A stretch of 59,424 nt of DNA from Deltaproteobacteria bacterium (GTDB lineage Bacteria; Desulfobacterota; Syntrophobacteria; BM002), in contig JAJDNB010000250.1 of the NCBI GenBank assembly GCA_022340905.1, forward strand, positions 1 through 59,424, written 5' to 3'. The translations under genes were made by a program, and so were the position numbers. Positions 16,594 through 59,424 of this stretch are shown here, one piece after another. Under the pieces are notes generated by a model. The model searched no databases. It worked only from the letters and a program-made list of their open reading frames with translations, and had not been told where the DNA came from. How positions within the stretch are numbered: the first letter of the stretch is position 1; every line of letters starts with the position of its first letter.

Positions 16594-16600
16594 CAACGTT

Positions 16601-16630
16601 AGTATACTTTTTGTTTGACTAATATGTCAA
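16601..16630 (-). promoter_or_regulatory. Sigma-70-type promoter of tetR-fadEAB
   Basis: On the minus strand a consensus TTGACA (16625-16630) and TATACT (16601-16606) with an 18-base spacer. The expected start near 16594 falls at the edge of the operator, which fits simple repression. Confidence 0.75.
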
Positions 16631-18067: not shown

Positions 18068-18101
18068 CCTGGATACTGCATGAATCACCCGCTGCGAGAC
18101 G
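18065..18101. repeat. Degraded end of the MITE-like element
   Basis: TAGCCTGGATACTGCATGAA followed by TCACCCGCTGCGAGACG matches the left end of the element at 524 in most positions. The rest of the element cannot be followed beyond this. As at 524, the TAG is the stop codon of the preceding gene. Confidence 0.5.
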
Positions 18102-18336
18102 TATCGTGTCCGTTCAGGAGGCTCGTCCGGAATGACGTGTTCGGCGCATGGTGACATGGTTTCGAATGAAAAAAGAGACTATTGCTCGCTCATTTATAGG
18201 TATATTATTTTTTTTCTTGCCCTGAGTCACATAGCTCGCTAGCCTAGTGTTTGTGCAAGGAGTTGAAATGCAATCAACAAAGGAACTGATACGCCACAGC
18301 GTTTGACACTCAGGCAATATAGGAGGTTAGACTTTG

Positions 18337-19920
18337 ATGAAAATCCTCATAAGTGACAACCTTGCCCAGAGGGGCATCGATCTGCTAAGCAGCGTCCCTG
18401 AGTTCGAGGTGGAATTCAAACCCGGGCTCTCTCTGGAAGATCTTAAAAGCGCTATTAGTGATGCAGAGGCACTCATCATTAGGAGTGGTACTGAGGTGAC
18501 CTCGGAAATCATTGGGGCTGCTAAAAGGTTGAGGGTAATTGGTCGAGCCGGCATAGGGTTGGATAACGTGGATATACCGGCGGCGAGCAAACGGGGCATT
18601 GTGGTAATGAATACCCCTGACGGCAACGTAATTACCACAGCCGAACACTCAATAGCCATGCTTATGGCTCTTTCTAGGAATATCCACCAAGCCACCACTT
18701 CCATGAAAAGCGGCAAATGGGATAAAAAACGATTTCTTGGACAAGAAGTCTTCCACAAAACTTTGGGAATAATCGGCATCGGCCGCATTGGGCGGATTGT
18801 AGCTGAGCGTGCCCTGGGACTGCGGATGCAGGTGTTTGCCTATGATCCCCACATGGAGCCAGAGACTATTCAGAAATTGGGCGTTGTTTCCGTGGATTTG
18901 GATGAGCTACTCAATAAGTCTGACTACATTACCGTACACACACCTCTCACCAGGGAGACCAAGGGACTGCTCAATCGTGAGGCTTTCGCCAAAATGAAGG
19001 ATGGCGTTATGATAATCAACTGTGCCCGAGGTGGCATCGTCAACGAGCAGGACCTCTATGAGGCGATTACCAGCGGCAAGGTAGCAGGGGCAGCCCTTGA
19101 TGTATTTGAACAAGAACCGCCTGGTGACCATCCCCTGCTCAAATTAGATCAAGTGATCTGCACTCCCCATCTCGGGGCCTCCACCGGTGAAGCCCAAGAG
19201 AATGTAGCTGTGTCCGTAGCCGAGCAGATAAAAGAGTTTCTTCTCGCTGGCGGCATTCGCAACGCGGTAAATACTCCTCAGATAACGTGCGAACTCATGA
19301 GCGAGATTTGCCATTATCTTACTTTGGCTGAAAGATTGGGGTGTTTTCTAGGGCAGATAACTCAGGGTGCTATGAAAGAGGTGACCATCGAATACATGGG
19401 CGGTGTTGCTCAGTTGGACACAGCACCCATTACCTTGTCAGCTTTGAAAGGGCTTCTCGAGCCTATACTCCAACACGAGGTGAACTATGTAAACGCCCCA
19501 ATCCTGGCTAGGGAAAGGGGAATTTTTGTAAAGGACTCCCGGAGTGAAGAGGCTCAGGATTACCTAAATCTCATAACCATTCGGGTGAAAAGTACGGCTG
19601 AAGAAACATCGGCTTCGGGAACGTTATTTGGCAAAAAAGAACCGAGGCTCGTTCGTTTCAACGACATTGCTCTGGAAGCAGATATGAGGGGCCATTTAGT
19701 ACTCATTTACAATGAAGATGTGCCCGGGACTTTCGGGAGTATCGGCACCTGCTTCGGCAACCACAGTATCAATATCTCCATGTGGAAAGCCGGCCAGATC
19801 GTTGAAACGGGAGAGAATGTCCTGCTCCTTAGAGTCGACAACCCGGTGGACGAAAATACCATGGAAGATCTCATAGATCTTCCCAATGTCAATTCAGTGC
19901 AACTGTTGGATATTCGGTAA
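18337..19920 (+). CDS. serA: D-3-phosphoglycerate dehydrogenase
   Basis: 527 residues, the long SerA type with an intervening domain and a C-terminal ACT domain. The start has AGGAGG upstream. The nucleotide site is TLGIIGIGRIGRIVAERAL (about 146-164); catalytic residues lie in NCARGGIVNEQDL (arginine), the glutamate after DVFEQEP and the histidine of TPHLGAST. The ACT domain (about 455-527) begins GHLVLIYNEDVPGTFGSIG and is the usual serine-sensing site. It oxidises 3-phosphoglycerate as the first step of serine synthesis. It stands alone, without serB or serC in the window. Confidence 0.95.
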   Translation: MKILISDNLAQRGIDLLSSVPEFEVEFKPGLSLEDLKSAISDAEALIIRSGTEVTSEIIGAAKRLRVIGRAGIGLDNVDIPAASKRGIVVMNTPDGNVITTAEHSIAMLMALSRNIHQATTSMKSGKWDKKRFLGQEVFHKTLGIIGIGRIGRIVAERALGLRMQVFAYDPHMEPETIQKLGVVSVDLDELLNKSDYITVHTPLTRETKGLLNREAFAKMKDGVMIINCARGGIVNEQDLYEAITSGKVAGAALDVFEQEPPGDHPLLKLDQVICTPHLGASTGEAQENVAVSVAEQIKEFLLAGGIRNAVNTPQITCELMSEICHYLTLAERLGCFLGQITQGAMKEVTIEYMGGVAQLDTAPITLSALKGLLEPILQHEVNYVNAPILARERGIFVKDSRSEEAQDYLNLITIRVKSTAEETSASGTLFGKKEPRLVRFNDIALEADMRGHLVLIYNEDVPGTFGSIGTCFGNHSINISMWKAGQIVETGENVLLLRVDNPVDENTMEDLIDLPNVNSVQLLDIR

Positions 19921-19965
19921 AACCGTGGCACACGCTATCCATGTCAACCGGGCGGTGGTCTCTGG

Positions 19966-20155
19966 GTTAGCGGCATAGAGCATGGCGCATGGAGCATAGG
20001 GTAAAAGGTACATTTCAAATTTGGAATTTTTCGACCCTCATATCGTAGCCCTCAATTCGAAATTCGCTAACCGCATTTCGAAATCATCTCTCTGCTATCA
20101 GCTATTGGCTGCATACTGACGCCATGCGCTTTGCGGTGAACGAAGTGAACGTACA
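19966..20155. repeat. Composite degenerate word array upstream of the enoyl-CoA hydratase
   Basis: Contains GCATAGAGCATGGCGCATGG-type words (from 19973), then TTCAAATTTGGAATTTTTCG and AATTCGAAATTCGC words (20013-20085), then CTATCAGCTATTGGCTGC, and finally GCGCTTTGCGGTGAACG (from about 20126). No gene is seen in 19921-20181. Confidence 0.6.
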
Positions 20156-20181
20156 AATAACCACAATGAACAGGAGCAACA

Positions 20182-20955
20182 ATGAATTACAAGAATATCC
20201 AAGTCCATACTGACGGTGCTATAAGTACTCTCATCTTAAACCGGCCGGGAAAAAGAAACGCTCTGTCCTTAAACACCCTTGAGGAGATGGGCCAGGCTCT
20301 CAAAGATTTGGCGGAACGCCAGGAGGTAAAGGTAGTGATCTTAAGAGGTAATGGATCGGTATTTTCAGCTGGCCACGACCTGAAAGAACTCGTTGAGGGA
20401 GGGCTCAAAGAATATCGTAAAATTTTTGCAACCTGTTTGAAGGCGATGCTCTTGCTGCGAAAGATTCCACAACCGGTGATTGCGGCTGTGCATGGAATTG
20501 CCACCGCTGCTGGCTGTCAACTGGTGGCGGCATGTGATTTGGCGGTTGCCACCGAGGATGCCCGCTTTGCCACCCCTGGAGTGAAGATAGGGTTTTTTTG
20601 TACAACGCCAATGGTGCCTTTGAGTCGAGTAGTGGGTCGGAAAAAAGCCCTAGAGATGCTGTTCACAGGGGAGTTCATCTCAGCTCAAGAGGCGTTGCAG
20701 TTTGGTCTCGTCAACAGGGTCGTACCAGCAGAGGAGCTTGATGAAGCGGTAAAAGATCTGGCTGAACGTATCTGCCAGTTTAGCCGGACAGTCCTGGGAT
20801 CAGGAAAGGAGGCTTTTTACCGACAGATTGAAATGTCTGAAAGCTTGGCCTATGCCTACGCCACTGAGGTTATTTCGGCCAACGGGGTGATGCCAGTGGC
20901 CCGGGAGGGTATGGCCGCCTTTTTGGAAAAAAGGCGGCCAGTGTGGCCAGAATGA
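20182..20955 (+). CDS. Enoyl-CoA hydratase/isomerase family protein
   Basis: 257 residues, normal for a single-domain crotonase. The oxyanion-hole segments are FSAGHDLKEL (about 59-68) and HGIATAAGCQLVAACDLAVA (about 100-119). The residue positions that hold the two catalytic glutamates of classical enoyl-CoA hydratase are not clearly glutamate here (GIATAAGCQLV and PGVKIGFFCTTPM), so this is closer to the ECHDC3-like subgroup, whose reaction is uncertain. The start has AGGAGC upstream. The AhpD-like gene follows after a repeat array of about 140 bp. Confidence 0.85.
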   Translation: MNYKNIQVHTDGAISTLILNRPGKRNALSLNTLEEMGQALKDLAERQEVKVVILRGNGSVFSAGHDLKELVEGGLKEYRKIFATCLKAMLLLRKIPQPVIAAVHGIATAAGCQLVAACDLAVATEDARFATPGVKIGFFCTTPMVPLSRVVGRKKALEMLFTGEFISAQEALQFGLVNRVVPAEELDEAVKDLAERICQFSRTVLGSGKEAFYRQIEMSESLAYAYATEVISANGVMPVAREGMAAFLEKRRPVWPE

Positions 20956-44695: not shown

Positions 44696-45562
44696 TTACG
44701 GGCCTGTAGCGCTGTACCAGGTACTGTTGGGATACTTGGCAAGACGGGCGCCCCTAGCATCTTGAATCAATTGTATAGCAGCAGCTGCGTTGGCATTACC
44801 CATTGAGGCAGCCTGGCGTAACATGGGCAAGGCCGGGTCTTCAATGAGGGCCAGGCAAGCAGGGGCACCGCCCAGCACTCTTTTCCGCGCAAAGGCTGGC
44901 ATCTTTGCGAGGAAGCCAGTGGCAGGACTGGAGCTTTCGCCTGCCTTTCGGACCAGCAGTTGTAACAGGCGATTGTCGCTCATCCAGGCGCGGTCGGAAG
45001 TGCTCAAAGTGCCGCCGTTCATGACGATGTCACGCTTTTGCTGTAAAATGGCTTTGAGACCTCCCATTGCACCCTTCGCCACATCTGGGTTCGGGCTCTC
45101 CAGATAAAAAAGGATGGGACCCAGATACTCCATGGTGGCTGCTTTTTCGAATGCTGCATCCAAGAACTTGTTGTTAATTTTTTTATTCCAAGAGGTCTGG
45201 GGCATGGCAACTAATCTCGTCAGGACGGCCAAATTTGCCCCTGTAAGTCGGTTGAGGGTAATCTGATACTGTTGTTTGTAGTAAATGGCAGAGCTTCGGT
45301 TACGCTCTAAATAGTATTTCTGGGCATGGCCGTAGTAGATGAAGAGAAAAGCGTTGGAGTTGGGATCTTGTGCTTGGTTTTGTGCCGTCTCGATGGCTTT
45401 GTCGTAATTGTTTCTCTCGAAGGCTTGGAGATTGCCTTTTTCCCAGTCGAGTAAAGGCCGTTCCGCCCAAGTGACCGACTGAGCCGTAAGATTTGATGTA
45501 TTTCCACCTACCAGCAATAATACGATAACGGCGAAAGCAGTTACCCCGATCCTTTTGCCCAT
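44696..45562 (-). CDS. Exported protein of unknown function
   Basis: 288 residues from ATG 45562, with AAGGAG 8 bases upstream. A signal peptide (KRIGVTAFAVIVLLLVGG) ends near NLTAQS. The rest is helical with repeats of the kind seen in TPR/HEAT-like proteins: an N-terminal part with AFERNNYDKAIETAQNQA and a C-terminal AASMGNANAAAAIQLIQDA that resembles Sel1 repeats. Likely a periplasmic scaffold. It shares direction with the phosphodiesterase-like gene 150 bp upstream. Confidence 0.65.
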   Translation of the reverse strand: MGKRIGVTAFAVIVLLLVGGNTSNLTAQSVTWAERPLLDWEKGNLQAFERNNYDKAIETAQNQAQDPNSNAFLFIYYGHAQKYYLERNRSSAIYYKQQYQITLNRLTGANLAVLTRLVAMPQTSWNKKINNKFLDAAFEKAATMEYLGPILFYLESPNPDVAKGAMGGLKAILQQKRDIVMNGGTLSTSDRAWMSDNRLLQLLVRKAGESSSPATGFLAKMPAFARKRVLGGAPACLALIEDPALPMLRQAASMGNANAAAAIQLIQDARGARLAKYPNSTWYSATGP

Positions 45563-45652
45563 GGACTGGTCTCCTTTTTTAAGCATGGCCATTAATGGAT
45601 TGGCTGCAGATTATAGAAATGGCGAGCGATTATGTCAAACCAACGATGGTTT

Positions 45653-45715: not shown

Positions 45716-47353
45716 CTACTGGTTTTTATTGGATCGCAGGTTTGCCAGTGGATTAGAGCCATCTAGCCCTTCCGGTACAGGTATTCCCAACAGGTGGGTC
45801 ACCATGGGAACTAGGTCCAAGGTTGAAGCACGAGCCTTATATATATGTTGGCCTGGGATAACTGGTGACAGTCCTGGTCCTGCGACCCAGAATGAGACGA
45901 TGCAGTCGTCGGGATAGTAGCTGCCATGATGTCCGTACTTGTCGAAGTCGCGCTCGAAATAATATCCTTTTTTGTTGATCAGCTTTATGTCCGGAGCTGT
46001 CTGCCTGGTGTACTGTCTTCTGAGGCCTCGAAGCAGATATTGCCCCAATTCAAAGTGCTCTGTCAGCTCATTTAGAGGCTGCAAGGCCTGACGAAATCCA
46101 AAATTTCCGCTGCCGGTTGCTTGATAGCGTTCCCAGTCAAATAGCCACCATTGGTCGTTCTCCAGCTGACCCTCGTACCGTTCTCCGGGATATTGGCGAA
46201 TCAGCATTGCCTTCATGGAGGTTTGCACGTCGTGATTTGCCAGAATTAGATCCACCGCAGGTTTGACATCTGCTAGCAATCTGGGTGGATCCATCCATTT
46301 GTCGGTTTGCCGGTTTTTGAGATACACTTCCTTCGTGCAAGCCCCGGGCATAACGACAGCATCCGCCCGCCTGTTGCTTCTCAACCAACTCGGCAACTTG
46401 TAATGATCACCCAGACTGTGCTCCAAGGTGTCATCGGGAATGTGTTTTCGGATGCGGATGGAGCCGTGCTCCGAAACCAGAATGAAAATAGTATCCTCGT
46501 AAATTCCCAACTCTTTGAGGGCGTTGAGCAGCCTTCTCATGAGCGGGTCCAGAACGGTTTTAACATAGTGGCTCTGAATTTCGTTCATGGAGGCCTGACG
46601 TTTTTTGAAATCAGCCGAGGGATAGTGTGAAAAAAGGTCAGTTCCTAACAGTTGCACCACCATTACATCTGGCACCAGATGATGGTATTTGTAAATGCCT
46701 GCCAGGCTTCTCCTGAATGCGGATACATGGCCGGTGAGAAAGCCGTCGAGGGTCTTATTATCCACGTAGCAGCTGTTAGGTACCCATTTGCCATGGCGAA
46801 AAGCATTGAGAACAGAAGCATTTCCCCAGAAAAACGCGCCGGATTTAACCGACCAATCAGCACCTTTGGTGAGCATGAGCATAGTGGTCATGGATCGTTT
46901 GTCAGACTGACCAACATAGTCGAACAAGGACTTGACGTTCCGGTCCTTTAAAATGTTGTTGATTCTGTCTTGGGAGTAGGAAATGAGAGTGCGGATTTGA
47001 TAGGTGGCTCGGTCAAACCAAATGGTAGATACCACCCCGGTGCGCTGAGGATACAGTCCGGTGTACATGGAAGTCACAGCTGGTTGGGAGGCAGCAGGAA
47101 TGGTGGTAAAGACCTGGGGTAGATAGACGTAGGCTTGACTGCCAGTGGTTCCTTCGATAATTTCCCGGAAATTGGGCAGATTCTCGAGGTTATCGGCCAA
47201 AATTTCTTGCTTGAGACCATGGAATTCGAGAATGATTATCTTTGGACCCTTCTCACCAGCCGTTGCTCCTCCGGTACAGAGTATGATCAGGAGTAGACAG
47301 ACGCTTATCACCAGGGGCAAAGGTACTTTGCTAGGAAGACAATCAAGTTTCAC
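45716..47353 (-). CDS. Alkaline-phosphatase-fold phosphodiesterase-like protein
   Basis: 545 residues with an N-terminal signal peptide (LVISVCLLLIILCTGG). The type I phosphodiesterase fold is visible: IPAASQPAVTSMYTGLYPQR (nucleophile region), LGTDLFSHYPS (Asp and His metal ligands), LVSEHGSI (where SDHG is usual) and HHGSYYPDD. The first metal aspartate, normally in a SIDG segment, is replaced in ILEFHGL. Two metal positions thus deviate (Asp to His, Asp to Glu), so the enzyme may use other metals or be inactive. A periplasmic phosphodiester or phosphonate hydrolase or a lipid-modifying enzyme is the best guess. Confidence 0.75.
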   Translation of the reverse strand: MKLDCLPSKVPLPLVISVCLLLIILCTGGATAGEKGPKIIILEFHGLKQEILADNLENLPNFREIIEGTTGSQAYVYLPQVFTTIPAASQPAVTSMYTGLYPQRTGVVSTIWFDRATYQIRTLISYSQDRINNILKDRNVKSLFDYVGQSDKRSMTTMLMLTKGADWSVKSGAFFWGNASVLNAFRHGKWVPNSCYVDNKTLDGFLTGHVSAFRRSLAGIYKYHHLVPDVMVVQLLGTDLFSHYPSADFKKRQASMNEIQSHYVKTVLDPLMRRLLNALKELGIYEDTIFILVSEHGSIRIRKHIPDDTLEHSLGDHYKLPSWLRSNRRADAVVMPGACTKEVYLKNRQTDKWMDPPRLLADVKPAVDLILANHDVQTSMKAMLIRQYPGERYEGQLENDQWWLFDWERYQATGSGNFGFRQALQPLNELTEHFELGQYLLRGLRRQYTRQTAPDIKLINKKGYYFERDFDKYGHHGSYYPDDCIVSFWVAGPGLSPVIPGQHIYKARASTLDLVPMVTHLLGIPVPEGLDGSNPLANLRSNKNQ

Positions 47354-47430: not shown

Positions 47431-47530
47431 AGGTGTCAGGTTTCGGGTGTCAGGTTTCAGGAGAAAAAACCCAAGGGGGAAAATCTGGAACCTGAACACT
47501 GAAACCTGAAACCTGGAAATTTGGTGCTCG
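47431..47530. repeat. Inverted array (GTGTCAGGTTTCAGG word)
   Basis: Left arm AGGTGTCAGGTTTCGGGTGT plus CAGGTTTCAGG (47431-47461) and right arm CCTGAACACTGAAACCTGAA plus ACCTGG (47490-47515) are imperfect reverse complements, loop about 28 bases. It lies in the 272-bp gap between the phosphodiesterase-like and barrel genes, where no gene is seen. Confidence 0.65.
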
Positions 47531-47625: not shown

Positions 47626-48789
47626 CTATGCTCCCAATCTCAACACCAAATAGACTTTTGGATTGCGATCACGGTCAGTTACGCTTTGACCCACGTCAAA
47701 ACCCACCTCAAAGGGAATTTTGTCAAAGAGGAACATTTGCAAGCGGACTCCACCACCCACGCCTACTTCCGCACCGGATATTGACTTACTGTCGTTATAC
47801 TCTCGCCAGATTTGACCACTGTCCACAAAAGCCACAGCGAGGAGTTGGTGAAAATAAAAGAGATCCCAAGCTGTGGTAGTCCGGTCGATGACCACGAAGG
47901 GATAACGCAGTTCTAGACTGGCAGCCCACAGCTTCTCGCCAGAAAATTCGTTGAAATCGTATCCTCGCAGACTGTTCTCGCCTCCCAAGACGAATAGTCT
48001 GGGATCATCCTTTTTAACCCCACCGTGGACCCGCAATGATGGCACCAATCGTTGACCTGCCCCGAAAAGTTTTTCTAGAGCCAAGTTGGTGTAGAGCCTC
48101 ACATCTCCCGCATAACTTTGAAAGGTGGTCTCACTTCCCATGTACTCGTTACCATATTTCGCGGTGAGATCAACCTGACTGCCGGAAATAATCTCCATGA
48201 GGTAATAGTCGGCAGTATCTCGAACCAAACTGAGCACTAGACCATTGAGCCGCTCCCATTCGTCAGGCAAATCCACCCAGGAAATTTCATAGCCGGTAAC
48301 GATCCGGTGATAGAGATCGAGAGGAAAGCTAAAAGTAAGACTGCCGCCCGCCTCCCTGCGCCAGTCATCCTCATCATAACCTGTGTCCTTTAGGTCACCG
48401 TAATAGGTGTTCTTATCGAAGAGATTTAAGCCAACTGCGGGGTACCACCCGAGGTAGGTGTATCCTGCCAACAGTTGCTCCTTGCCGCTTTCTGTCCCCA
48501 CGCCGCCACGGAAGCTTAGGACGTGATCTCCTGTGTAATTGCTACCCTGCCACTCCACACCAGGAATGATTCCATCCTTTTCATTGTAGTCGAGGTAGGG
48601 CAAGAAGAAATCAGTGGAAAAACTGTCATGGTAGTCTTGCTCTTTATAGGTTTCCCCTCGGCAAGGTAAGACCAAGAAAAAGAGAAAAAAGACCGCCAGC
48701 ATGACCAACAGCAGTCTGTGCGGGTCAAATGACCTTGACCCCTGTACTTTGTCGGTTTTTTCCCGGCAACCATCAAGGTCAGCTACCAT
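47626..48789 (-). CDS. Omp85/BamA-type outer membrane barrel protein
   Basis: 387 residues. A hydrophobic signal segment (LLLVMLAVFFLFFLVLPC) is followed by a domain rich in alternating beta strands. Near the end lies LGGENSLRGYDFNEFSGEK, where LRGY corresponds to the conserved VRGY/F element of the Omp85 barrel, then AASLELRYPF and a last strand ending in VYLVLRLGA. No POTRA domains are present, so this is a barrel-only member. It overlaps the preceding protease-propeller gene by 11 bases, so the two are co-translated and likely work together at the outer membrane. Confidence 0.82.
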   Translation of the reverse strand: MVADLDGCREKTDKVQGSRSFDPHRLLLVMLAVFFLFFLVLPCRGETYKEQDYHDSFSTDFFLPYLDYNEKDGIIPGVEWQGSNYTGDHVLSFRGGVGTESGKEQLLAGYTYLGWYPAVGLNLFDKNTYYGDLKDTGYDEDDWRREAGGSLTFSFPLDLYHRIVTGYEISWVDLPDEWERLNGLVLSLVRDTADYYLMEIISGSQVDLTAKYGNEYMGSETTFQSYAGDVRLYTNLALEKLFGAGQRLVPSLRVHGGVKKDDPRLFVLGGENSLRGYDFNEFSGEKLWAASLELRYPFVVIDRTTTAWDLFYFHQLLAVAFVDSGQIWREYNDSKSISGAEVGVGGGVRLQMFLFDKIPFEVGFDVGQSVTDRDRNPKVYLVLRLGA

Positions 48790-50503
48790 TTGCGACTCCC
48801 GGCTCCAAAGGCATCATAGCACCTTCAAAAATCTTGTATTGTCCGTGGCGAAAATAGCTGAAGAGTAACCGTGTGCCATCCGGGCTGACCCGAGGGGAAA
48901 ATATTCCACCCACCACCTTGGACAGACGGTAAGTGTCTCCGCTCTCCAGGTCCAGGAGATAAAGATTGAAGATGCCAGTCTCGTCAGAGACGTAGAGGAT
49001 TTTTTTGGCCTCTGGCATGAGTAGCGGCCATATTTCATCCTGAGGCGTATTGGTGAGCCGGGTTTCCTTGCCGCTCACAAGGTCTTTGAGTACCAGATCA
49101 AATTGCATCTGGTACTCTCTGGAGAAAACTAGGAGATTGCCATCTGCAGACCAATTGGGGTAGGCTTCATCATTTGTAGTCCAGGTTAAACGGTTGAGTT
49201 TGCCGTCTTCCAGATTTACTTTATAGATATCGGCAAAACCATCAACCGTTGCAACAAATCCCACCTCCTCATCTCCTGGGAGAAAAGCTGGAAAGCTGTT
49301 TACTCTGAGGTTCTGCTTGATCGGTTTTTCCTTTTTCTGGTTTAAATCGTAAAGAAAAAGATCGCTACGATTATCTTCATCACTGACAAAGACTAGCCGA
49401 GTACCATCATGAGACCAGCCTAGAGGAGCTGGATACACGTACCGTTTTTTCAGTCTCGTGACCTGGCCGCTCGACCGCTCAAGCAGGTAAAGAGAAAACT
49501 CGAATGATTCATTTTCCAAGTCAGATATGAAGGCAATCCTGCTGCCGTCGGGACTATAGGCAGGGAAAAGATTCCAGCCCTTATTGGCGGTGAGAAGACG
49601 GACTTGGGCAAATGGATCTTGCCAGCCCTCTCCGCCTACGCGGAGCCGACTGTTGGCATACTCTCGCCAAGTCCACTCCAGGCGGCGGTAATCCTGGCCA
49701 GTAACCTGATAGAGAGCGCTGTGAAGGTTAAGCTTGTTTTTTATCAGCCGCAGGAGACGGGGAATGGTGTCTGGGCCGTAGGTGTCAACCAGAAACCGAA
49801 TGAAAAGGTCACTTTGGTAGTAAGCTGACCGTATCTGGTGGGGGGGTAAATGGCTAAAGCCTCGTAACTGATTGAGGGGGATGAGGCTGTGATCCATGAC
49901 CGCATCACGAACGTACATGGCCGAGGTAGAGTCCCAAGCCTTAGCTTCATATTGAGCGACCCCTTCCATGTACCACAGAGGCGAGAGCACCCCGGTGAGT
50001 ATGATTTGCAAAGAGCGGTAGGGACCATCGAGGAGATACTTGAGTTCAACGGCGTGAGTGATTTCGTGTAGAGCCAACCGCTGAAGAGCTCTATCATTGC
50101 TGGTTACGGGAAATACAACTCTCTCTTTAAAAAATTCAGTGAACCCACCGCTTCCTCTTACCAGCCCAGTTACAATGTTTGTAGTCTCATACTCCTTCTG
50201 GGACGGATAAATGAATACGGGAATGGTTTTATCGAAGTGCAGATCCAGGTCGTGGTTTATACCTGTAAGGTGGGTTGCATAAATCTGGGCTACGTCGAGG
50301 GCTCGCCTTTTCAACTGTTCCGGATAAATAACCCGAAACCCATTGCCTTGTACCTCCTTCCAGTCGTAGTCGGTGTCTTGTATTTTATTCTTGCCGTATA
50401 AGCGTTCAGAGCCTGTGACAGTCATTTGCTCGCGAGCACAGGAAAGGAGCGCTACCAGCAACAGTAATGGCCATAGTCTGTTAGGGGACACAAAACTCTC
50501 CAA
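48779..50503 (-). CDS. Lipoprotein: peptidase-MA-like domain plus TolB-type propeller
   Basis: 574 residues. The N-terminus (LWPLLLLVALLSCAREQ) ends in a lipobox LLSC, so it is probably lipid-anchored in the envelope. A gluzincin domain follows: HEITH at about 146-150 and the candidate third ligand in WYMEGVAQYEA, as in the peptidase MA family. From about residue 270 there are PD40/TolB propeller blades: SPDGSRIAFISD, SHDGTRLVFVSDEDN, SADGNLLVFSRE and SPDGTRLLFSYF. Fused metalloprotease and propeller, translated together with an Omp85-type barrel, suggest a processing or assembly unit at the outer membrane. The start is TTG 50503 or a GTG four codons on. Confidence 0.82.
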   Translation of the reverse strand: MESFVSPNRLWPLLLLVALLSCAREQMTVTGSERLYGKNKIQDTDYDWKEVQGNGFRVIYPEQLKRRALDVAQIYATHLTGINHDLDLHFDKTIPVFIYPSQKEYETTNIVTGLVRGSGGFTEFFKERVVFPVTSNDRALQRLALHEITHAVELKYLLDGPYRSLQIILTGVLSPLWYMEGVAQYEAKAWDSTSAMYVRDAVMDHSLIPLNQLRGFSHLPPHQIRSAYYQSDLFIRFLVDTYGPDTIPRLLRLIKNKLNLHSALYQVTGQDYRRLEWTWREYANSRLRVGGEGWQDPFAQVRLLTANKGWNLFPAYSPDGSRIAFISDLENESFEFSLYLLERSSGQVTRLKKRYVYPAPLGWSHDGTRLVFVSDEDNRSDLFLYDLNQKKEKPIKQNLRVNSFPAFLPGDEEVGFVATVDGFADIYKVNLEDGKLNRLTWTTNDEAYPNWSADGNLLVFSREYQMQFDLVLKDLVSGKETRLTNTPQDEIWPLLMPEAKKILYVSDETGIFNLYLLDLESGDTYRLSKVVGGIFSPRVSPDGTRLLFSYFRHGQYKIFEGAMMPLEPGVANGS

Positions 50504-50518
50504 TTTCTTATGACCGGA

Positions 50519-51448
50519 TCAGTTTAAATTTTGGAGACTCTTGAAGGTGTTTTCCAGAGTCCCTACTGTATCAGTTGTAAGCACCTCTGCCCGGCGGTGA
50601 ATCCATCGCACCGACCGACTAAGCACCTGGCCGGGTCCGATTTCAATCATAGGTGCCAAATTCTGTCGGGCCAATTCCTCTACTACTCCTACCCACTGAA
50701 CCTTACTTCGAAGCTGAATAGAGAGCAACTCCGCCACCTGAGATGCTTTCATTAACGGTTTTTGATCGATATAAGAGAGGATGGGAGTGTGAGGATCATT
50801 CATGGGAATTGTGGCAATCTTTTTGGCCAGACAGTGATCGGCTGCGGTAAGGAGGCTACAGTGATAGGGAGCCGCCGCAGGGAGTCGGTAAGCCTTTAGG
50901 GCTTCTGAGTCTTTTGCAGCCCGTAACAGCTCATCTACTGCCTCCCGCTCCCCGGAGACGATGATTTGATGTCGAGTGTTTACAATACTGACTTCAACCC
51001 TCCCCTCCACCTTTTCGCACATCTCCTCCACCTCCGCCAGTGAGAGGCCGAGCACCACCCCCATACCACCCTGGCAGTTGGCCTCTCTGATACAACGGTC
51101 GGCTTCCACTATGAGGTTGAGACCAGTTTCGAAGTCCACTGCCCCGCCTCCGTAAGCGGCCCCATATATGCCAGAGCTATAGGGTGCGAGCATTGCTGCC
51201 TTTATGGATTTACTTGCCATGAGATCGGCCACCATACAGCTTACGGTATAGACTGCCAGTTGGGCATTGAGATCTTCATGGAGTCGTTGCTCTGGTCCGG
51301 AAAACAAGATCTCTCCGAGGGAAAATTCAAGGTAGGATTCGGCTCGCTCGAGCAAATCTTTGCTCTCAGCGAACCTTTCTACGAGGTCACGACCCATGCC
51401 TACATATTGGGCACCCTGACCTGGAAACAAGAAGGAGCAACCTTTCAT
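50519..51448 (-). CDS. FabD-like acyltransferase with altered active site
   Basis: 309 residues, the FabD length. The start CSFLFPGQGAQYVGMGRDL, AAPYHCSLL (active-site histidine) and EIGPGQVLSRSV are typical. The nucleophile elbow, GHSLGE in malonyl-CoA:ACP transacylases, reads PYSSGI here: the serine is kept but the histidine and glutamate are replaced. The arginine that binds the malonyl carboxylate (LVxxRG) seems replaced by aspartate (LIVEADR). It may therefore transfer a non-carboxylated acyl group. It overlaps lolA by 4 bases and is 15 bp from the protease-propeller gene, so it belongs to an envelope operon and not to a fatty acid synthesis operon. Confidence 0.8.
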   Translation of the reverse strand: MKGCSFLFPGQGAQYVGMGRDLVERFAESKDLLERAESYLEFSLGEILFSGPEQRLHEDLNAQLAVYTVSCMVADLMASKSIKAAMLAPYSSGIYGAAYGGGAVDFETGLNLIVEADRCIREANCQGGMGVVLGLSLAEVEEMCEKVEGRVEVSIVNTRHQIIVSGEREAVDELLRAAKDSEALKAYRLPAAAPYHCSLLTAADHCLAKKIATIPMNDPHTPILSYIDQKPLMKASQVAELLSIQLRSKVQWVGVVEELARQNLAPMIEIGPGQVLSRSVRWIHRRAEVLTTDTVGTLENTFKSLQNLN

Positions 51449-52152
51449 GGCCGTCTCCCGGACTGATAGCTCTCGACCTTAAAACCTTCCGGCGGTTCAA
51501 CGCTAAATAGGCCACGTGAAAGGTTGGCATTTTCTATCAAGTTGGACAGGTAAATTAGGGTCCAGTCACCGTTGCCCTCTAAAATGGCAATTTCATTTGG
51601 CAGCCAGGTTTTCGGATCTATCTTGACTTCCAGCCGTTGGAAATAGCGCGAGTGAGTGGTAGTTTTCGGTTCCATGTTCATTTGTATCCAGCTGCTCCCT
51701 CCACCTCGAGCGACCAGTCGGATTTTTATGGCATACTGGCGCTGAAAGGTTTGCGGATCATCGGTCGCGCCCATGATTCGACCCAAAAGGTCCACCCCGG
51801 TTGGTCCGCGGTACAGGGTTGCCTTCTTGAGGTCTGGGTAAAGCAGAAGAATTTGGTCTTCATTCACCACTAGGGTTAGAGGGTCAGGTTGAATCACCTC
51901 CCAACGGAATCGCCCTGGTGGCAGCCAAAACAGCTCGCCTTTCGAGTCTATAGGTGTTACTAGAAGCCGAGAGTATTTTCGTTGTTCAAAAGAACCTTTG
52001 AGACTTTTCAGGGTCTTGGCTTTTGACTGGAGCTGCTCCAGAACTTCCGGTGCTGTCACCTGAGTTCCAGCCACTGAGACTTGAGAGCTAAGGGCAGCCA
52101 TACCACCGAGAATGAGTCCTAAATAAAGCAGGAGTTTCGGAGATTTGGTCAT
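51445..52152 (-). CDS. LolA-like outer membrane lipoprotein carrier
   Basis: 235 residues from ATG 52152; the frame is open farther upstream through a GGATTGTGGATTGCGG-type repeat. Signal peptide SPKLLLYLGLILGGMAALSS. The mature part has the LolA pattern LKSLKGSFEQRKYSRLLVTP, SKGELFWLPPGRFRWEVIQP, LVVNEDQILLLYP and a C-terminal LIYLSNLIENANL. It should carry lipidated proteins or other lipids through the periplasm. Being inside an acyltransferase cluster, it is more likely a dedicated carrier, as in aryl polyene clusters, than the housekeeping LolA. Confidence 0.85.
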   Translation of the reverse strand: MTKSPKLLLYLGLILGGMAALSSQVSVAGTQVTAPEVLEQLQSKAKTLKSLKGSFEQRKYSRLLVTPIDSKGELFWLPPGRFRWEVIQPDPLTLVVNEDQILLLYPDLKKATLYRGPTGVDLLGRIMGATDDPQTFQRQYAIKIRLVARGGGSSWIQMNMEPKTTTHSRYFQRLEVKIDPKTWLPNEIAILEGNGDWTLIYLSNLIENANLSRGLFSVEPPEGFKVESYQSGRRP

Positions 52153-52196
52153 TTTCAATCCACAATCCGCAATCCACAATCCGCAATCCGAAACCC
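52153..52196. repeat. Tandem degenerate repeat (CAATCC[AG]CAATCC)
   Basis: TTTCAATCCACAATCCGCAA followed by TCCACAATCCGCAATCCGAA, four or five 7- to 8-base units, directly upstream of the LolA-like start and overlapping the end of the acyltransferase gene. Confidence 0.6.
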
Positions 52197-53078
52197 TCAC
52201 AAAGGATCAACGATATACCACTGGTCCGGAAAACGGCGGATGTATTTTTCGAAAACCTCAGCCACTTGTCGCAGGTTATATTGCAATGCCTCTTTGCGAT
52301 TCGGGCCATATTTTAATTTCAAGGGGGATTCGACGATACCACGATAGCGTCCGGGAGCCACCATAACCGAAAAGGCCGGAACAATCGGTGCCCGAGCTGC
52401 CATGGCCAGCAGTACCGGACCCACGGGAAGCTGCACCGGACGATTAAAAAAAATAGTAGACTCGGATCTATCGGCAGCAAGAACCCTGTCACCCAAAACA
52501 GCCACGACCTCATTTCGATTCAGAGCCTTGATCAATTCAATAGCGCCATAGGCTGACTCCTCCACTTCAATGACCCGTATACCATGACGCCTGCGCATTG
52601 CATTAATCAAAGCATTGGTGAATGTAGTGTTGTGCTTTAAGGCTACCACGTTGACCGGATAGCCCATGGCCCGGAGCCCTAGACCTCCAATCTCCCAATG
52701 GCCGAGATGAGCAGTAAGGAGGACCGCCCCCTGCCCTCTTGCCAGGGCTTCATCGATATGCTGGCGACCCTGATAAAGACCAGCGAATGCCTGGCAATCT
52801 TCCAAGGTCATGCTCAGCAGACGAAAGAAATCGGCAACGTAGATTCCGTAGTTCTGGAAGAATCTCCACAGGAGCAACTTTCTACTAGCAGGGAGATTGC
52901 AGCCCTCAAAGATACGGTCGAAGTTGTGGGAGACATGCCGCCGATCCTGCGGTGAAAAGAGGTAAGCAAGTCCGGCAACGCATCTTGCTAGAGTATAGGT
53001 AACCGTCGGAGGCAGTGAGCGAACCGTTCTCAGAGCCTGCCTATACCAAAATGGTTTATCAAGAAAATGTTCACGCAT
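52197..53078 (-). CDS. LpxL/HtrB-type lysophospholipid acyltransferase
   Basis: About 293 residues from ATG 53078; ATG 53108 is an alternative. The family HxxxxE active site is in LLTAHLGHWEIGG (about residue 127). Further marks are VVALKHNTTFTNALI, LGDRVLAADRSESTIFF and PIVPAFSVMVAPGRYRG. Classic members add the secondary acyl chains to lipid A at the inner membrane; paralogues occur in aryl polyene and related lipid clusters. First gene of the minus-strand unit acyltransferase - lolA - fabD-like - protease/propeller - barrel. Confidence 0.88.
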   Translation of the reverse strand: MREHFLDKPFWYRQALRTVRSLPPTVTYTLARCVAGLAYLFSPQDRRHVSHNFDRIFEGCNLPASRKLLLWRFFQNYGIYVADFFRLLSMTLEDCQAFAGLYQGRQHIDEALARGQGAVLLTAHLGHWEIGGLGLRAMGYPVNVVALKHNTTFTNALINAMRRRHGIRVIEVEESAYGAIELIKALNRNEVVAVLGDRVLAADRSESTIFFNRPVQLPVGPVLLAMAARAPIVPAFSVMVAPGRYRGIVESPLKLKYGPNRKEALQYNLRQVAEVFEKYIRRFPDQWYIVDPL

Positions 53079-53301: not shown

Positions 53302-53371
53302 TGACTCTTTCTTGACTTAATGAATGCAACTATGATACCGAGGCTTACTATTTCTATGCTGGAATGTGAAA

Positions 53372-54691
53372 ATGTCATTGAAGATATTGTTGATCTCACC
53401 CATAGGATTAAAGAAGATTTTGGGAGCGGACTTCTTCTTTAAACTGCCATTTTTGGGACTACCTACCGTTGCTGCCCATACGCCGCCGGACTGCGAAGTC
53501 AAAATGGTGGACGAGCGGATCAGGCCGGTGGATTTCGATGCCGATGCCGATTTAATCGGGATCTCGGTAATGACTCCCCTTGCCACCAGGGCTTATGAGA
53601 TAGCAGATGAATTTAAACGGCGCGGGAAGACTGTGGTCATGGGGGGCATGCATGTCTCTGCTTTGCCAGAAGAAGCTCTGGAGCATTGCGATGCCGTGGC
53701 CGTCGGAGAAGGTGAAAAAGTTTGGCCCCAGATGGTGGAAGACTTCAAGCGCGGAGAACTGAAGGAGATCTACCAAGCCAATCAACTGATAGATCTGGCT
53801 GAGGCGCTACCTCCTCGCTGGGACATTATCGACAAAAATATGTATAGTCCCGTGGACTTTATTGAAACTACGAGGGGATGTCCGATCAATTGCAATTTCT
53901 GTGCGGTCACTCAATTCTACGGGGCCAAATACCGCACGAAACCCGTCCATCTTGTTGAGGAGATGGTGGCGAAAGTTAAGCCGGTGGATAAGTTTTTCGC
54001 CCTCAAGAACCTAATATTCTTCGTTGATGACAATATTGTTGCCAATCGGAAACACTGCATGGAGCTGTTGAACATGCTGAAGTCCTATAATATACAGTGG
54101 CTTGGCCAGGCTTCTGTGTCGGTTGCAAAGGATGATGAACTCCTAAAGCTAATGTCCGAAACCAGATGCCTCGGGCTATTGATAGGCATGGAGAGCCTTT
54201 CTGAGGATACTTTGGCTGAATGTGGGAAACGGATAAATAAACCAGCCGAATATCTGGAGGCCGTGAACACGTTGCACCGTTATGGCATAGGGGTAAAGGC
54301 CACATTCATGATCGGCTTTGACAACGATGATATCTCGGTATTTCCCAAAATGGCCAGATTCATTACCAGATCCAACTTTGACAGTGTGTATTTCAGCATT
54401 CTCACGCCCTACCCGGGCACCCGGCTTTTTAAGAGGATGGAAAGCGAGGGCAGGTTGCTACATAAGGTTTGGGAAAAGTACGATACTGCTCATGTTGTCT
54501 TTCGTCCCAGAAAAATGACTGTAGAGCAGCTCGAAGAGGGATTTACTTGGCTTTACAAGAAAGCCCTTTCAATGAAATCGATAGCATTGCGTCTTGCCCG
54601 AGGCAGAACAAATCCTCAGTTCTTCCTTCCCGACAATCTGGCCTTTAGATCGTGTTTATTCAGAATGCTGCGAGGAAGTAAGAAAGATTGA
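53372..54691 (+). CDS. B12-binding-domain radical SAM protein
   Basis: 439 residues from ATG 53372. The N-terminal part (about 1-140) is a cobalamin-binding-like domain with LIGISVMTPLATRAYEIADE and GGMHVSALPEEALEHCDAVA; the usual DxHxxG histidine is not clearly present. The radical SAM motif is RGCPINCNFCAVTQFYG (CxxxCxxC, about 169-176). The C-terminal half has GMESLSEDTLAECGKRI and FMIGFDNDDISVF. Relatives methylate or rearrange lipids, hopanoids or natural products. First gene of a plus-strand group of envelope-type genes. Confidence 0.87.
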   Translation: MSLKILLISPIGLKKILGADFFFKLPFLGLPTVAAHTPPDCEVKMVDERIRPVDFDADADLIGISVMTPLATRAYEIADEFKRRGKTVVMGGMHVSALPEEALEHCDAVAVGEGEKVWPQMVEDFKRGELKEIYQANQLIDLAEALPPRWDIIDKNMYSPVDFIETTRGCPINCNFCAVTQFYGAKYRTKPVHLVEEMVAKVKPVDKFFALKNLIFFVDDNIVANRKHCMELLNMLKSYNIQWLGQASVSVAKDDELLKLMSETRCLGLLIGMESLSEDTLAECGKRINKPAEYLEAVNTLHRYGIGVKATFMIGFDNDDISVFPKMARFITRSNFDSVYFSILTPYPGTRLFKRMESEGRLLHKVWEKYDTAHVVFRPRKMTVEQLEEGFTWLYKKALSMKSIALRLARGRTNPQFFLPDNLAFRSCLFRMLRGSKKD

Positions 54692-54765
54692 GATTGCAGA
54701 TCGATAGTGTCAGATCATATACTCCAAGGTAAAATCTCAGATCTGCAATCTTTTAAACTTCAACC
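54685..54765. repeat. Inverted array (GATTGCAGATC / GATCTGCAATC)
   Basis: GAGATTGCAGATCGATAGTG (54691) and CTCAGATCTGCAATCTTTTA (54737) hold the perfect arms GATTGCAGAT and ATCTGCAATC. The TTTTAAA after the second arm makes this a plausible terminator for the radical SAM gene, whose stop lies at the start of the left arm. Confidence 0.6.
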
Positions 54766-54781
54766 GGGTTCGTAATCTCCC

Positions 54782-55417
54782 ATGTGCTCATTGGACGGTT
54801 CGCGCTCAATATTCATCTTGACTCTACTGGTCTTGACTTTGCATGGCTGTGCTACCCCTCCACCTGTTCCAAAAAGACTTGAGTTTCTCAACTATCAAGG
54901 ACAGGTAAATGAACACCATGTTATTATACAGGCTCCACCTTCTCACGTTTTTGACGTGCTCACCGATTATGACCGGTTCCTGACCTTGATACCCTCCGAT
55001 CGAGTTCGACTCAAAAAAATGACCCCCGGTCCCTACCATGTTGGCACCACCATTCGAGCCGTAACCGTCTTCAAAATAAAGCTCAGCTGGGAGTCACGGG
55101 TAGTGGAAATACAGAAGGATCGTTCTTTGGTACTTCAGTTCCAGAGTGGACCCTTCCGGGGGGGCTACGAGGTTTGGCAGCTCGAAGCCGCAGGAAGCTG
55201 CACCAGAGTGAGCCATACCCTGATTTACAATATTTCCAATTTCTTTTATCGATTGGTCTGGCTAATGAAGCGGGGAGAGAAAAAACACAACACCCTGACG
55301 GATGTTACCTTGCTGAATCTAAAACGGGAATGCGAAGAAGGACTTTTGCCCCCTTTTATGGGGGGACCGCGAGAAGAGGAGAGCTGTGACATTCTGCCAT
55401 CTTTGCCGAGGAAGTGA
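54782..55417 (+). CDS. SRPBCC-domain lipoprotein
   Basis: 211 residues. Signal peptide II: FILTLLVLTLHGC, lipobox LHGC at about 20-23. A START/polyketide-cyclase-like domain (about 44-185) begins EHHVIIQAPPSHVFDVLTDY, with SWESRVVEIQ and LVLQFQSGPFRGGYEVW strands and the long C-terminal helix. A ligand-binding fold fixed to a membrane by lipid suggests handling of a hydrophobic compound in the periplasm. The last 32 bases overlap the methyltransferase gene, so the products are made together. Confidence 0.78.
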   Translation: MCSLDGSRSIFILTLLVLTLHGCATPPPVPKRLEFLNYQGQVNEHHVIIQAPPSHVFDVLTDYDRFLTLIPSDRVRLKKMTPGPYHVGTTIRAVTVFKIKLSWESRVVEIQKDRSLVLQFQSGPFRGGYEVWQLEAAGSCTRVSHTLIYNISNFFYRLVWLMKRGEKKHNTLTDVTLLNLKRECEEGLLPPFMGGPREEESCDILPSLPRK

Positions 55418-56213
55418 ATTAAGACCATTTGTGCGTGAGGGTGAGTGGCAATATCTGCGCTGTCTCAACTGCGGTCTCATCTTCCTTGAGCCGCAACCCT
55501 CGAAGGAATTCCTCCGCAGCCATTATCAAGACTACCTGCCTGCCGATCCCCAAGAGATCGAAAACTGGCGTACTATGATGACCCAGGTTTTCACCAAGAG
55601 CGCCAACCTCATCCAGGATGTGATCCCTATTCCGGGACGCTTACTAGACGTAGGCTGCGGCTATGGTTTTTTCTTGCAAGAGATGGCTCGGCGGAACTGG
55701 CAGGCGGATGGAATTGAAATCTCGGCCACCGGGAGAGTTTACGCTCGAGATAAATTAGGATTGAATGTGTCGGACAGACCCCTGCCACGACCCGAGTGGC
55801 AAGATAATTGCTACGACGTGGTCACACTCTTTTATGTGATAGAACATTTACAAGATCCCAAGAGTTTGCTGGGGGAAGTTCGTCGTCTTCTTGGGACCGG
55901 TGGCTTGCTGCTGCTGAGGTGGCCGCACACAGCCCCTATTGCCACAATGTTTAAGCCCTGGGTATCGAGAATGAAACTGTATCAGGCCCCTTCTCATTTG
56001 TTTGACTTTTCACCATCGACTATATATAAAATCCTTGATCAACTTGACTTTCGAGAGATTCGCACCACGATCTGTGGATGGACCAAGCCAAACAGAAAGG
56101 GTGAGCACCTAGCCGCGTGGTTCTTTGGTAGTTTAGGCGAGCAATTGGCCAGAGTAACCCGTGATCGTCTGCTCTTGCCTGGGGTGAGCAAGACTACTTT
56201 AGCCCGACGCTGA
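55386..56213 (+). CDS. Class I SAM methyltransferase with N-terminal zinc ribbon
   Basis: 275 residues from GTG 55386, with GAGGAG upstream inside the preceding gene. Residues 4-40 hold two CxxC pairs (CHLC and CLNC) with GLIFLEPQPS, a zinc ribbon common in sugar and lipid O-methyltransferases of surface polysaccharide clusters. The methyltransferase motif I is LLDVGCGYGFFLQEM (about 81-95) and motif IV DVVTLFYVIEHLQDP. The end of the protein resembles the membrane-associated tail of this family. Confidence 0.82.
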   Translation: MTFCHLCRGSELRPFVREGEWQYLRCLNCGLIFLEPQPSKEFLRSHYQDYLPADPQEIENWRTMMTQVFTKSANLIQDVIPIPGRLLDVGCGYGFFLQEMARRNWQADGIEISATGRVYARDKLGLNVSDRPLPRPEWQDNCYDVVTLFYVIEHLQDPKSLLGEVRRLLGTGGLLLLRWPHTAPIATMFKPWVSRMKLYQAPSHLFDFSPSTIYKILDQLDFREIRTTICGWTKPNRKGEHLAAWFFGSLGEQLARVTRDRLLLPGVSKTTLARR

Positions 56214-57193: not shown

Positions 57194-59424
57194 ATGAATG
57201 ATCCGGAGCGAGAGCAGTTGACGACCCACTCATCATTGCATCCACACAAGGGGAACGATTTTACCGGATATGGGGCTGCCGCGCAGCAATCTGCGGCTGA
57301 TGCTCCGGTAGTTGGCATACCCCGCGGTCTTCTCTATTTCAGGTACCAACCCTTATGGGCTACCTTTTTCTCCCACCTGGGTGTCAAGATTAGAGTATCA
57401 CAGCCCACCGAGCGATCCAGTTTCGACACCGCTCAGAGCCTCACTCGCAGCGATCTTTGCCTTCCCGTTAAAGTCTTTCTCGAGCATGTTTCCAGATTAA
57501 AAGATACGGTGGACTTTCTCCTGCTTCCAAGGGTCATCAGCGTGAGTCCCGATGCTTACATGTGCCCCAAGATCCTGGGATTGACCGACATTGTTCGCAA
57601 TGTTTTTGCCGATCTACCTTCGCTTCTAACCCCAAGGGTAAACGCCAAGCTTCCGAAACCCGAAGGATTTGCCGAGGCATGTTTAGAGGTGGGTCACCGT
57701 TTTAGTAGCAGTACGTCACAAGTGGAAATTGCCTGGCAGGCTGCTTGCAGAGCTCAAGGGAAGTTCGAACAAAGGCTGCTGAGATATCCTCTGGACGAGG
57801 CGTTGAAACCATGGGATCGAGCCTTTGCACCAAAAAACGGTAATGCCGAAATTTCGCCTCGATACCGCGTAGCAGTAATTGGCCGGCCCTACATCTCCTT
57901 TGATAGAGCCCTGAGTCATGACCTGCTGCATTTGCTCAAACGGTACGCTGTTGAGATTGTTACCCCAGAGTCAGTACCCGAGAAAATCATAGCCAGAGAG
58001 AGTGAGAGACTGTCAAAGAAAGTTTACTGGGAATTGGGAAGAGAACTGGTGGCCGCCGCTTTGCACTACATGAAGGACCCAGAGGTGGATGGCATCATCA
58101 ATGTTTCCAGCTTTGGCTGTGGCCAAGATTCCTTCACCAACGCTCTGGTGGAATATTTCGTCACCAAACACTCGAACAAGCCCATGCTCAGCTTGGTCAT
58201 GGATGAGCACACCGCCGATGGTGGGTTAAACACCAGAGTAGAAGCTTTTCTGGACATGGTGGAGCAGCGAAAAAAGAATGGTACCGTGCGCTTGAGTGAA
58301 CGGGGCAAGGTGCAAGGGACGTCTTGTGTTGGTGATCCTGCAACAAGACCCAAGTCCGCGAAAATGCATCTCACCATTCCACACATGGGACATCTCCACA
58401 TAGGTTTCGAGCAAGTGTTCAAAAATCTCGGTGTCCATATTACAATGCCACCCCGTCCCAATAAAGAAGCTTTGATGCTGGGTACGCGCTATTCACCGGA
58501 ATGTTCCTGCCTGCCCTTTAAAATGAATTTGGGCAATATGATCCAAGCACTGAATCAAGGCGCCACCGATATTATGATGCCTGGCGGTTTTGGCCCCTGT
58601 CGCTTTGGCTACTACAGCGTAATCCAGGAACAAATCCTAAGAGATCTGGGTTACGAGTTCAGGATGGGCCGTGCGGATGATCCGGACAGTCTTCGTGACA
58701 TGTTGGACATGGTCAAGAGAATCGCCGGGCTCAACACCAAGTGGGATTCATACAAAGTTTTCTTCTTCATTCTCCATCGTCTCGCCCTAGTGGACTGGGC
58801 CTTACGTCGTGCCCACTGGTTGCGGCCGAGGGAGGTCAACAGACGTTCCACTGACCGGGCACTGCGTCGCTGCCTTCAAATCATAGATGAAACAGGCAGA
58901 TTCCGTGACTTGTGGTTGGCTAAACGAAAGGTCCGGCAGATACTGAGCAACGTGGCCTGCGAACCTGAACGGCCTACTCTCAGAGTGGGAATCGTAGGTG
59001 AGATATTTATGGTACTGGAGCACTATGCCAACATGAACGTGGAGGAACGGCTAGGCGAGATGGGAGTTGAGGTGCACCGCGGCGTTTGGCTTAGTGACTG
59101 GTTAAATGACCGTTATCGGTTCAAACTTTTCCGGCGTAACCAGTTCCAGTGGTCCCTCCGGCAGGCCAGACCATACCTGTGTGAACCCAGCGGTGGTGAA
59201 AGTGTGAAATCGGTGGGGAAAACAGTGGCCTTTGCCAAAAGGGGATTTGACGGTGTCGTGCACCTCATGCCCTTTACCTGCATGCCTGAGCTGGTAGCTC
59301 AGACGATCTTGGCTAAAGTTTCTCGTGACTATAATATCCCAGTGCTCACCCTGATCTTCGATGAGCATACTTCACCCGGTGGAGTGCAAACTCGGTTGGA
59401 GGCCTTCGTAGATCTTCTTAACCG
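57194..59424 (+). CDS. COG3580-COG3581 fusion, acyl-CoA dehydratase/activase-related, 5' part
   Basis: Open frame of 743 codons with no stop before the window ends; start ATG 57194 (or 57206-type internal starts are unlikely). The N-terminal module (about 40-375) is DUF2229/COG3580: VVGIPRGLLYFRYQPLWATF, CLPVKVFLEHV, YMCPKILG, SFGCGQDSFTN and MDEHTADGGLNTRVEAF. The second module (about 390-743) is COG3581-like: PHMGHLHIGFEQVFKNLG, SPECSCLPFKMNLGNMIQAL, GGFGPCRFGYYSV and FDEHTSPGGVQTRLEAF. In both families the cysteines are thought to hold an iron-sulfur cluster as in 2-hydroxyacyl-CoA dehydratases. The two are often separate genes or joined behind a BadF-type ATPase; here the ATPase is not in front. 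Confidence 0.85.
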   Translation, partial: MNDPEREQLTTHSSLHPHKGNDFTGYGAAAQQSAADAPVVGIPRGLLYFRYQPLWATFFSHLGVKIRVSQPTERSSFDTAQSLTRSDLCLPVKVFLEHVSRLKDTVDFLLLPRVISVSPDAYMCPKILGLTDIVRNVFADLPSLLTPRVNAKLPKPEGFAEACLEVGHRFSSSTSQVEIAWQAACRAQGKFEQRLLRYPLDEALKPWDRAFAPKNGNAEISPRYRVAVIGRPYISFDRALSHDLLHLLKRYAVEIVTPESVPEKIIARESERLSKKVYWELGRELVAAALHYMKDPEVDGIINVSSFGCGQDSFTNALVEYFVTKHSNKPMLSLVMDEHTADGGLNTRVEAFLDMVEQRKKNGTVRLSERGKVQGTSCVGDPATRPKSAKMHLTIPHMGHLHIGFEQVFKNLGVHITMPPRPNKEALMLGTRYSPECSCLPFKMNLGNMIQALNQGATDIMMPGGFGPCRFGYYSVIQEQILRDLGYEFRMGRADDPDSLRDMLDMVKRIAGLNTKWDSYKVFFFILHRLALVDWALRRAHWLRPREVNRRSTDRALRRCLQIIDETGRFRDLWLAKRKVRQILSNVACEPERPTLRVGIVGEIFMVLEHYANMNVEERLGEMGVEVHRGVWLSDWLNDRYRFKLFRRNQFQWSLRQARPYLCEPSGGESVKSVGKTVAFAKRGFDGVVHLMPFTCMPELVAQTILAKVSRDYNIPVLTLIFDEHTSPGGVQTRLEAFVDLLN

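Follow-up and report, generated by a model that had tools for sequence, protein, structure and literature searches.

A block of five closely spaced genes on the minus strand occupies positions 47626-53078 of the 59,424-nt stretch of deltaproteobacterial DNA analysed here, which is termed the window and belongs to a genome, designated G000, with a completeness of 94%. The block, which combines acyltransferase, lipoprotein-carrier and outer-membrane genes, is discussed below in relation to a ladderane-type fatty-acid synthesis cluster of the same genome. Its five genes are as follows.

47626-48789, minus strand: Omp85 barrel without POTRA domains (PF01103, 7e-15)
48779-50503, minus strand: protease-propeller lipoprotein (PF13485, Peptidase_MA_2, 4e-13; PF07676, PD40, TolB-like, 1e-30; lipobox LLSC)
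50519-51448, minus strand: FabD-like acyltransferase (PF00698, 2e-28)
51445-52152, or 51445-52200 with a GTG start, minus strand: LolA2, a second LolA (PF03548, 3e-16)
52197-53078, minus strand: LpxL-type inner-membrane acyltransferase (PF03279, 6e-32; HX4E motif HLGHWE)

These open reading frames (ORFs) and their five identities, which had been put forward in a first-pass annotation, were borne out by the sequence and by Pfam domain matches. The spacings of 4, 15 and 11 bases given there were also recovered, although the 4-base overlap between LpxL and LolA2 depends on the GTG start at 52200, which the orthologs do not support; they favour the ATG at 52152, with which the two genes stand about 45 bases apart. 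The stretch 52152-52200, ahead of the likely LolA2 start, is an imperfect tandem repeat of short length (GATTGTGGATTGCGGATT), and it is through this repeat that a GTG-started frame can overlap LpxL. The orthologs of the LpxL-type gene begin at the same ATG, and the HX4E motif is kept in six of them. Each of the five proteins scores below the NCBIfam cut-off set for the best-known family of its name, so they are regarded as divergent family members; elsewhere in G000 there are better-scoring LpxL copies of the lipid A type, from which the block protein differs, and another, higher-scoring LolA is encoded on contig C202.

In block-bearing relatives, a cluster for type II fatty-acid synthesis encodes FabG, a 4HBT thioesterase, a FabZ-like protein, a GT2 protein, a ketosynthase (KS), a second ketosynthase-like protein, the B12/radical SAM enzyme rSAM_ladder and a polysaccharide deacetylase. 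The acyl carrier protein (ACP) of the cluster was identified by Pfam in G002 only, with a counterpart ORF of 124 aa in G009. The KS retains the Cys of TACSSS and the His of HGTGT, whereas in the second protein the Cys is replaced by His or Glu and the HGTGT His is gone, on account of which it is read as a chain-length factor (CLF). When the CLF of a more distant relative, Desulfobacterales CR_Bin_129 (G060), was used as the query, homologs at 42-43% were found in G000, G001, G002, G007 and G009, all of which bear the block, while seven block-less relatives gave only weaker, FabF-like matches (Fisher p 0.005). The ladderane-family radical SAM model TIGR04072, whose cut-off is 360 bits, was exceeded in G000, G002, G007 and G009 (390-401 bits) and in G060 (373.6 bits), and in none of the nine others among the 14 genomes tested.

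The block and the synthesis cluster share one contig in G009. In G000 the cluster is borne by contig C268, which overlaps the end of the window, and three features describe the join.

59284-59424, strand not applicable: overlap of the window end with C268 (141 bases, 95% identical)
about 60574-63150 if the contigs are joined, on C268: MMPL/RND exporter, 858 aa within a range of 853-858 aa for this gene, between block and cluster
about 68417-75729 if the contigs are joined, on C268: the FabG-to-rSAM_ladder cluster, in the same order as on the single G009 contig

The gene order across the join matches that of G009 on both sides, and because of this order and the 141-base overlap the distance between block and cluster in G000 is most likely about 15 kb. 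Ketosynthase and carrier-protein genes, which the first-pass annotation had proposed to look for upstream, are thus represented by KS, CLF, reductase, dehydratase and thioesterase genes together with the adjacent MMPL exporter, and by the ACP in relatives.

The same block order, the other observation suggested in that annotation, was found in G002, G009, G001 and G007, which are four other species of the genus, and G003, a genome of 79% completeness, carries two block genes on a short contig; a search of the genus genomes found no full-length lipoprotein in another four species. In G002 the block has different flanks, with Obg, proB, a nadD-type gene, rsfS and an M48-TPR protein upstream, so the five genes behave as a block that was relocated or retained whole.

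A further arrangement was encountered in G060, where a scan of the contigs for the peptidase domain uncovered locus L058. Of the block genes, L058 contains only the lipoprotein (66% identity) and the barrel (59%), which overlap each other there as well and directly follow FabG, a 4HBT thioesterase, GT2, KS, CLF and rSAM_ladder. The second locus of G060 encodes, in order, LpxL (40%), a homolog (44%) of the radical SAM enzyme that is divergent from LpxL in the window, LolA (30%), the FabD-like protein (36-37%) and a FabZ homolog, and it also has adjoining homologs of a START protein and a methyltransferase (49%). The corresponding genes of the window are listed here.

53366-54691, plus strand: B12-binding radical SAM enzyme, transcribed divergently from LpxL, with homologs in ladderane-type clusters
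54782-55417, plus strand: START/polyketide-cyclase-like protein (PF03364, 1e-9) with a lipoprotein-like signal, LHGC
55386-56213, plus strand: SAM methyltransferase (PF13489)

Since their homologs adjoin LpxL, LolA and the FabD-like gene in G060, the genes at 53366-56213 are counted as part of the set, and the earlier limitation of the unit to five genes has to be abandoned; the START-like lipoprotein is a possible lipid carrier. The five genes do occur apart, being split into two loci in G060, and hence do not form an obligate block, but each locus keeps pathway genes. These two arrangements provide the strongest argument for a joint function of the parts.

The FabD-like enzyme departs from canonical FabD, in which an Arg residue binds the carboxylate of the malonyl group. 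Alignment with FabD chains of the PDB revealed that the fold, the GQGAQ motif, the nucleophilic Ser and the catalytic His are kept, whereas GHSLG is changed to PYSSG and the malonyl-binding Arg to Ala; the protein scores 198.5 bits, below the fabD equivalog cut-off of 260.9. Ala occupies the Arg position in all five FabD-like orthologs and in G060, while the canonical FabD of the genus has Arg, and all nine of the shorter FabD-like proteins encoded in other ladderane-type clusters lack it. These residues are not what a malonyl transferase would be expected to have, and the loss of the Arg naturally points to a neutral acyl substrate. A role as the sole malonyl transferase of the cell was rejected, as a canonical FabD accompanies the paralog in G002, G007 and G009; none was found in G000, which at 94% completeness probably reflects an assembly gap.

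The lipoprotein and barrel genes of the block, which overlap by 11 bases, encode the two halves of what is a single chain in other lineages, resembling WD40-Omp85. In the lipoprotein, the HExxH motif (HEITH), the third-ligand motif WxxEGxAxYE and the lipobox are conserved in the orthologs. The domain search gave no POTRA match for the barrel protein, for which the AlphaFold2 model (predicted local distance difference test, pLDDT, 65.5) has 15 strands called, where the barrel fold of the Omp85 superfamily has 16, with BamA/TamA as the best PDB matches in Foldseek (E 3e-8). Relatives that unite peptidase, propeller and barrel in a single chain of 920-1050 aa occur in KSB1 and Eisenbacteria, and single-chain propeller-barrel proteins were found at L059, L060, L061, L169 and L227, to which identity amounts to 21-28% over the propeller protein and 20-27% over the barrel. 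The fusion elsewhere speaks for lipoprotein and barrel acting together. The model of a fused protein, with a pLDDT of 63.8, is too uncertain to reveal the way in which propeller and barrel dock.

A narrow profile had suggested that the propeller/barrel proteins are confined to the genus, which was rejected after a wider profile found homologs, mostly fused, in about 24 of 395 sampled genomes of the phylum. Two of these fused proteins, of 970 aa in G144 and of 1000 aa in G269, are encoded between rSAM_ladder and FabG. In the tree, the pair from the window falls together with the fusions of KSB1 and Eisenbacteria, and those of G144 and G269 are placed on another branch, which indicates that the link to ladderane-type clusters arose at least twice; a single common origin for all copies in lipid clusters is not supported. 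Moreover, at least four of about 26 fused genes (G144, G269, G331 and G149, from four other families) lie within 20 kb of a TIGR04072 gene, against about 0.15 expected, with P near 2e-5 as a rough estimate that excludes the genus itself. The genomes G067 and G139 each contain two separate genes for single-chain protease-propeller-barrel proteins (L235, L236, L238 and L239), located away from recognised lipid-cluster genes.

Ladderane-type clusters are known in Deltaproteobacteria, although ladderanes were not detected in Desulfotalea psychrophila (PMC2649909), and such clusters have been reported from metagenome-assembled genomes of Desulfobacterota, where their role is not known and a likely intracellular role has been assumed (PMC9902471). 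In the present sample, TIGR04072 was above its cut-off in 84 of the 395 genomes. Among 40 ladderane-type neighbourhoods, LpxL (at least 150 bits) was present in 11, a high-scoring FabD-like gene in nine, and a close homolog (more than 400 bits) of the radical SAM enzyme at 53366 in 11. With the ladderane-type pathway of the anammox organism Kuenenia and of D. psychrophila, the set shares divergent FabF paralogs, ACP and the TIGR04072 B12/radical SAM enzyme, and differs in the attached genes for outer-membrane delivery; the phytoene-desaturase-like amine oxidase typical of the ladderane-type pathway was found in none of the loci examined.

The genes for delivery find their counterpart in the aryl polyene clusters, in which ApeD, the LolA-like ApeL, the RND protein ApeM and the LolB-like ApeN are thought to attach the pigment and deliver it to the outer membrane (PMC8253772). 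Compared with apeA-R of E. coli CFT073 (Table 1 of PMC8253772), the set has in common a KS, a chain-length-type KS, a ketoreductase, a dehydratase, an ACP and a thioesterase, as well as an LpxL/lysophospholipid-type acyltransferase, a LolA-like protein and an RND/MMPL exporter, to which it adds radical SAM enzymes, the Arg-less FabD-like protein and the protease-propeller lipoprotein with its Omp85 barrel. As to the aryl-acid acyl-ACP synthetase, none of the genes annotated by Pfam in the two loci encodes an adenylating ligase, the rest of the genome not being searched. The LolB domain PF03550 was absent from five genomes, the DUF3261 type of ApeN not being searched by name, so that the propeller/barrel pair or the START lipoprotein may replace LolB. 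Two ladderane-type clusters of other families, both with LpxL, GT2 and radical SAM genes, possess in addition a LolA and an MMPL exporter (L184) or a LolB gene at the cluster end (L190); their export sets resemble the aryl polyene way out and offer the natural comparison for what the propeller/barrel pair replaces.

The whole combination was, as the first-pass annotation had supposed, not found described, whereas the pairing of propeller and barrel is already known as WD40-Omp85, a subfamily that Heinz and Lithgow described along with noNterm Omp85 and likened to a BamA-BamB fusion (PMC4104836). Both share the TolB-like propeller with an Omp85 barrel, and both halves of the present pair are homologous to single-chain proteins; here, in contrast, the two are split, the propeller is a lipoprotein with an N-terminal zinc peptidase, POTRA is missing and the genes stand with lipid genes. 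A ladderane-type pathway with aryl-polyene-like export and a split protease-WD40-Omp85 was not met with in the literature searched, which did not extend to subscription papers. Each part comes from a described family, and as far as could be found only the combination is undescribed.

Taken together, we regard the block, with a probability of roughly 60%, as the arm of a type II fatty-acid pathway of the ladderane type that handles acyl transfer and delivery to the outer membrane. In such a pathway, KS/CLF, FabG, the FabZ-like dehydratase and the carrier protein would build a modified chain, probably polyunsaturated or cyclised, that radical SAM enzymes would tailor. The FabD-like protein would move a neutral acyl group, either the starter or the finished chain, between carriers, and the LpxL-type enzyme would attach the chain to a lipid anchor at the inner membrane. 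Subsequently, the product would be brought to the outer membrane by the MMPL exporter and by LolA2, perhaps assisted by the START lipoprotein, and there the protease-propeller lipoprotein and the POTRA-less barrel, as a split WD40-Omp85, would substitute for LolB, inserting or exposing the lipid. The order of these steps is read by comparison with the aryl polyene clusters, and the protease might, by analogy, work as BepA does near LptD and BAM (PMC8423444). Of the route conceived earlier, by which a product is acylated, carried and delivered, dedicated acylation and transport have thus been tied by the adjacent synthesis genes to a fatty-acid or polyketide-type pathway, while delivery to or through the outer membrane is what we infer.

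Several observations weigh against the block being such an arm. The propeller and barrel are absent from most of the ladderane-type clusters of Desulfobacterota examined, and most of the fused propeller-barrel proteins found are not near such clusters. Characterised Omp85 proteins handle mostly proteins, not lipids, and the presence of an HExxH protease accords better with the handling of proteins than with the transfer of lipids. In addition, the block and the cluster are 0.8 Mb apart in G002, no KS/CLF was detected in the 79% complete G003 despite its block genes, and the co-occurrence of KS/CLF with the block at the genus level is drawn from related genomes.

The second, third and fourth of these points, with the conserved zinc-protease motif and the BamA-BamB likeness of WD40-Omp85 (PMC4104836), favour another reading, in which the propeller lipoprotein and barrel form a module for protein handling, such as outer-membrane protein assembly, protease quality control or secretion, and the pathway supplies a lipid needed by, or anchoring, the module or its client. 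This reading, the strongest of the rivals, is nevertheless less likely than the delivery arm, for the block is not accompanied by any conserved gene for a client protein, two fused copies stand directly between biosynthetic genes, and the association with ladderane-type clusters arose at least twice on the tree. A more specific form of the delivery arm, in which the split pair is a lipid-specific outer-membrane insertase that acts on an exotic acyl lipid and replaces LolB, the metallopeptidase serves as its gate or quality control, and the product is a surface rather than an internal-membrane lipid, appears rather doubtful.

Modification of lipopolysaccharide or lipid A by the block, with extra acylation and a second LolA for extra lipoproteins and with no relation to a distant cluster, would accord with the family membership of LpxL and LolA and with the separation seen in G002. 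It is improbable in the light of the higher-scoring LpxL copies and other LolA of G000, and lipid A modification by the block alone was rejected on the linkage to KS/CLF, which also co-occur with the block, and on the arrangement in G060, where LpxL, LolA and the FabD-like gene adjoin a cluster-type FabZ homolog and a radical SAM enzyme. That unrelated envelope genes came to lie together by chance, a view for which the many ladderane-type clusters without propeller and barrel could be cited, is scarcely credible for an overlapping block that is conserved in five species, was relocated as a block, recurs with pathway genes in a second lineage and has fused counterparts near TIGR04072 genes in four other families far beyond expectation.

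If the block is the delivery arm proposed above, the attached LpxL, LolA, MMPL and outer-membrane barrel genes predict an outer-membrane anchorage of the ladderane-type product, like that of the aryl polyenes; the attachment of such genes to the pathway suggests a lipid bound for the cell surface, which contrasts with the likely intracellular role assumed in the survey (PMC9902471). Ladderane-type clusters are widespread outside the anammox bacteria, and the present case provides candidates both for an Omp85 system that handles lipids and for a FabD-like transferase with a substrate other than malonyl.

Two further genes of the window travel with the block.

45716-47353, minus strand: exported phosphodiesterase of the alkaline phosphatase superfamily (PF01663), beside the block in G001, G002, G007 and G009
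44696-45592, minus strand: exported protein, kept with the block in G002, G007 and G009

A repeat-like stretch (CAGGTTTCAG... / CCTGAAACCTGACACC) is found at 47440-47520, in the intergenic space that separates the barrel gene from the phosphodiesterase gene. Beside the synthesis cluster (L090 and L096 on C268; L091 in G002) are genes for an NHL-repeat protein with a CsgG-like N-terminus, a radical SAM/SPASM enzyme, a small multidrug export family protein and an ATP-grasp enzyme, whose order is kept across the block-bearing genomes and partly in G060. Finally, positions 1654-20955 of the window encode acyl-CoA dehydrogenases, an enoyl-CoA hydratase and a 3-hydroxyacyl-CoA dehydrogenase of the beta-oxidation type, together with ABC ATPases of the branched-chain amino acid type.

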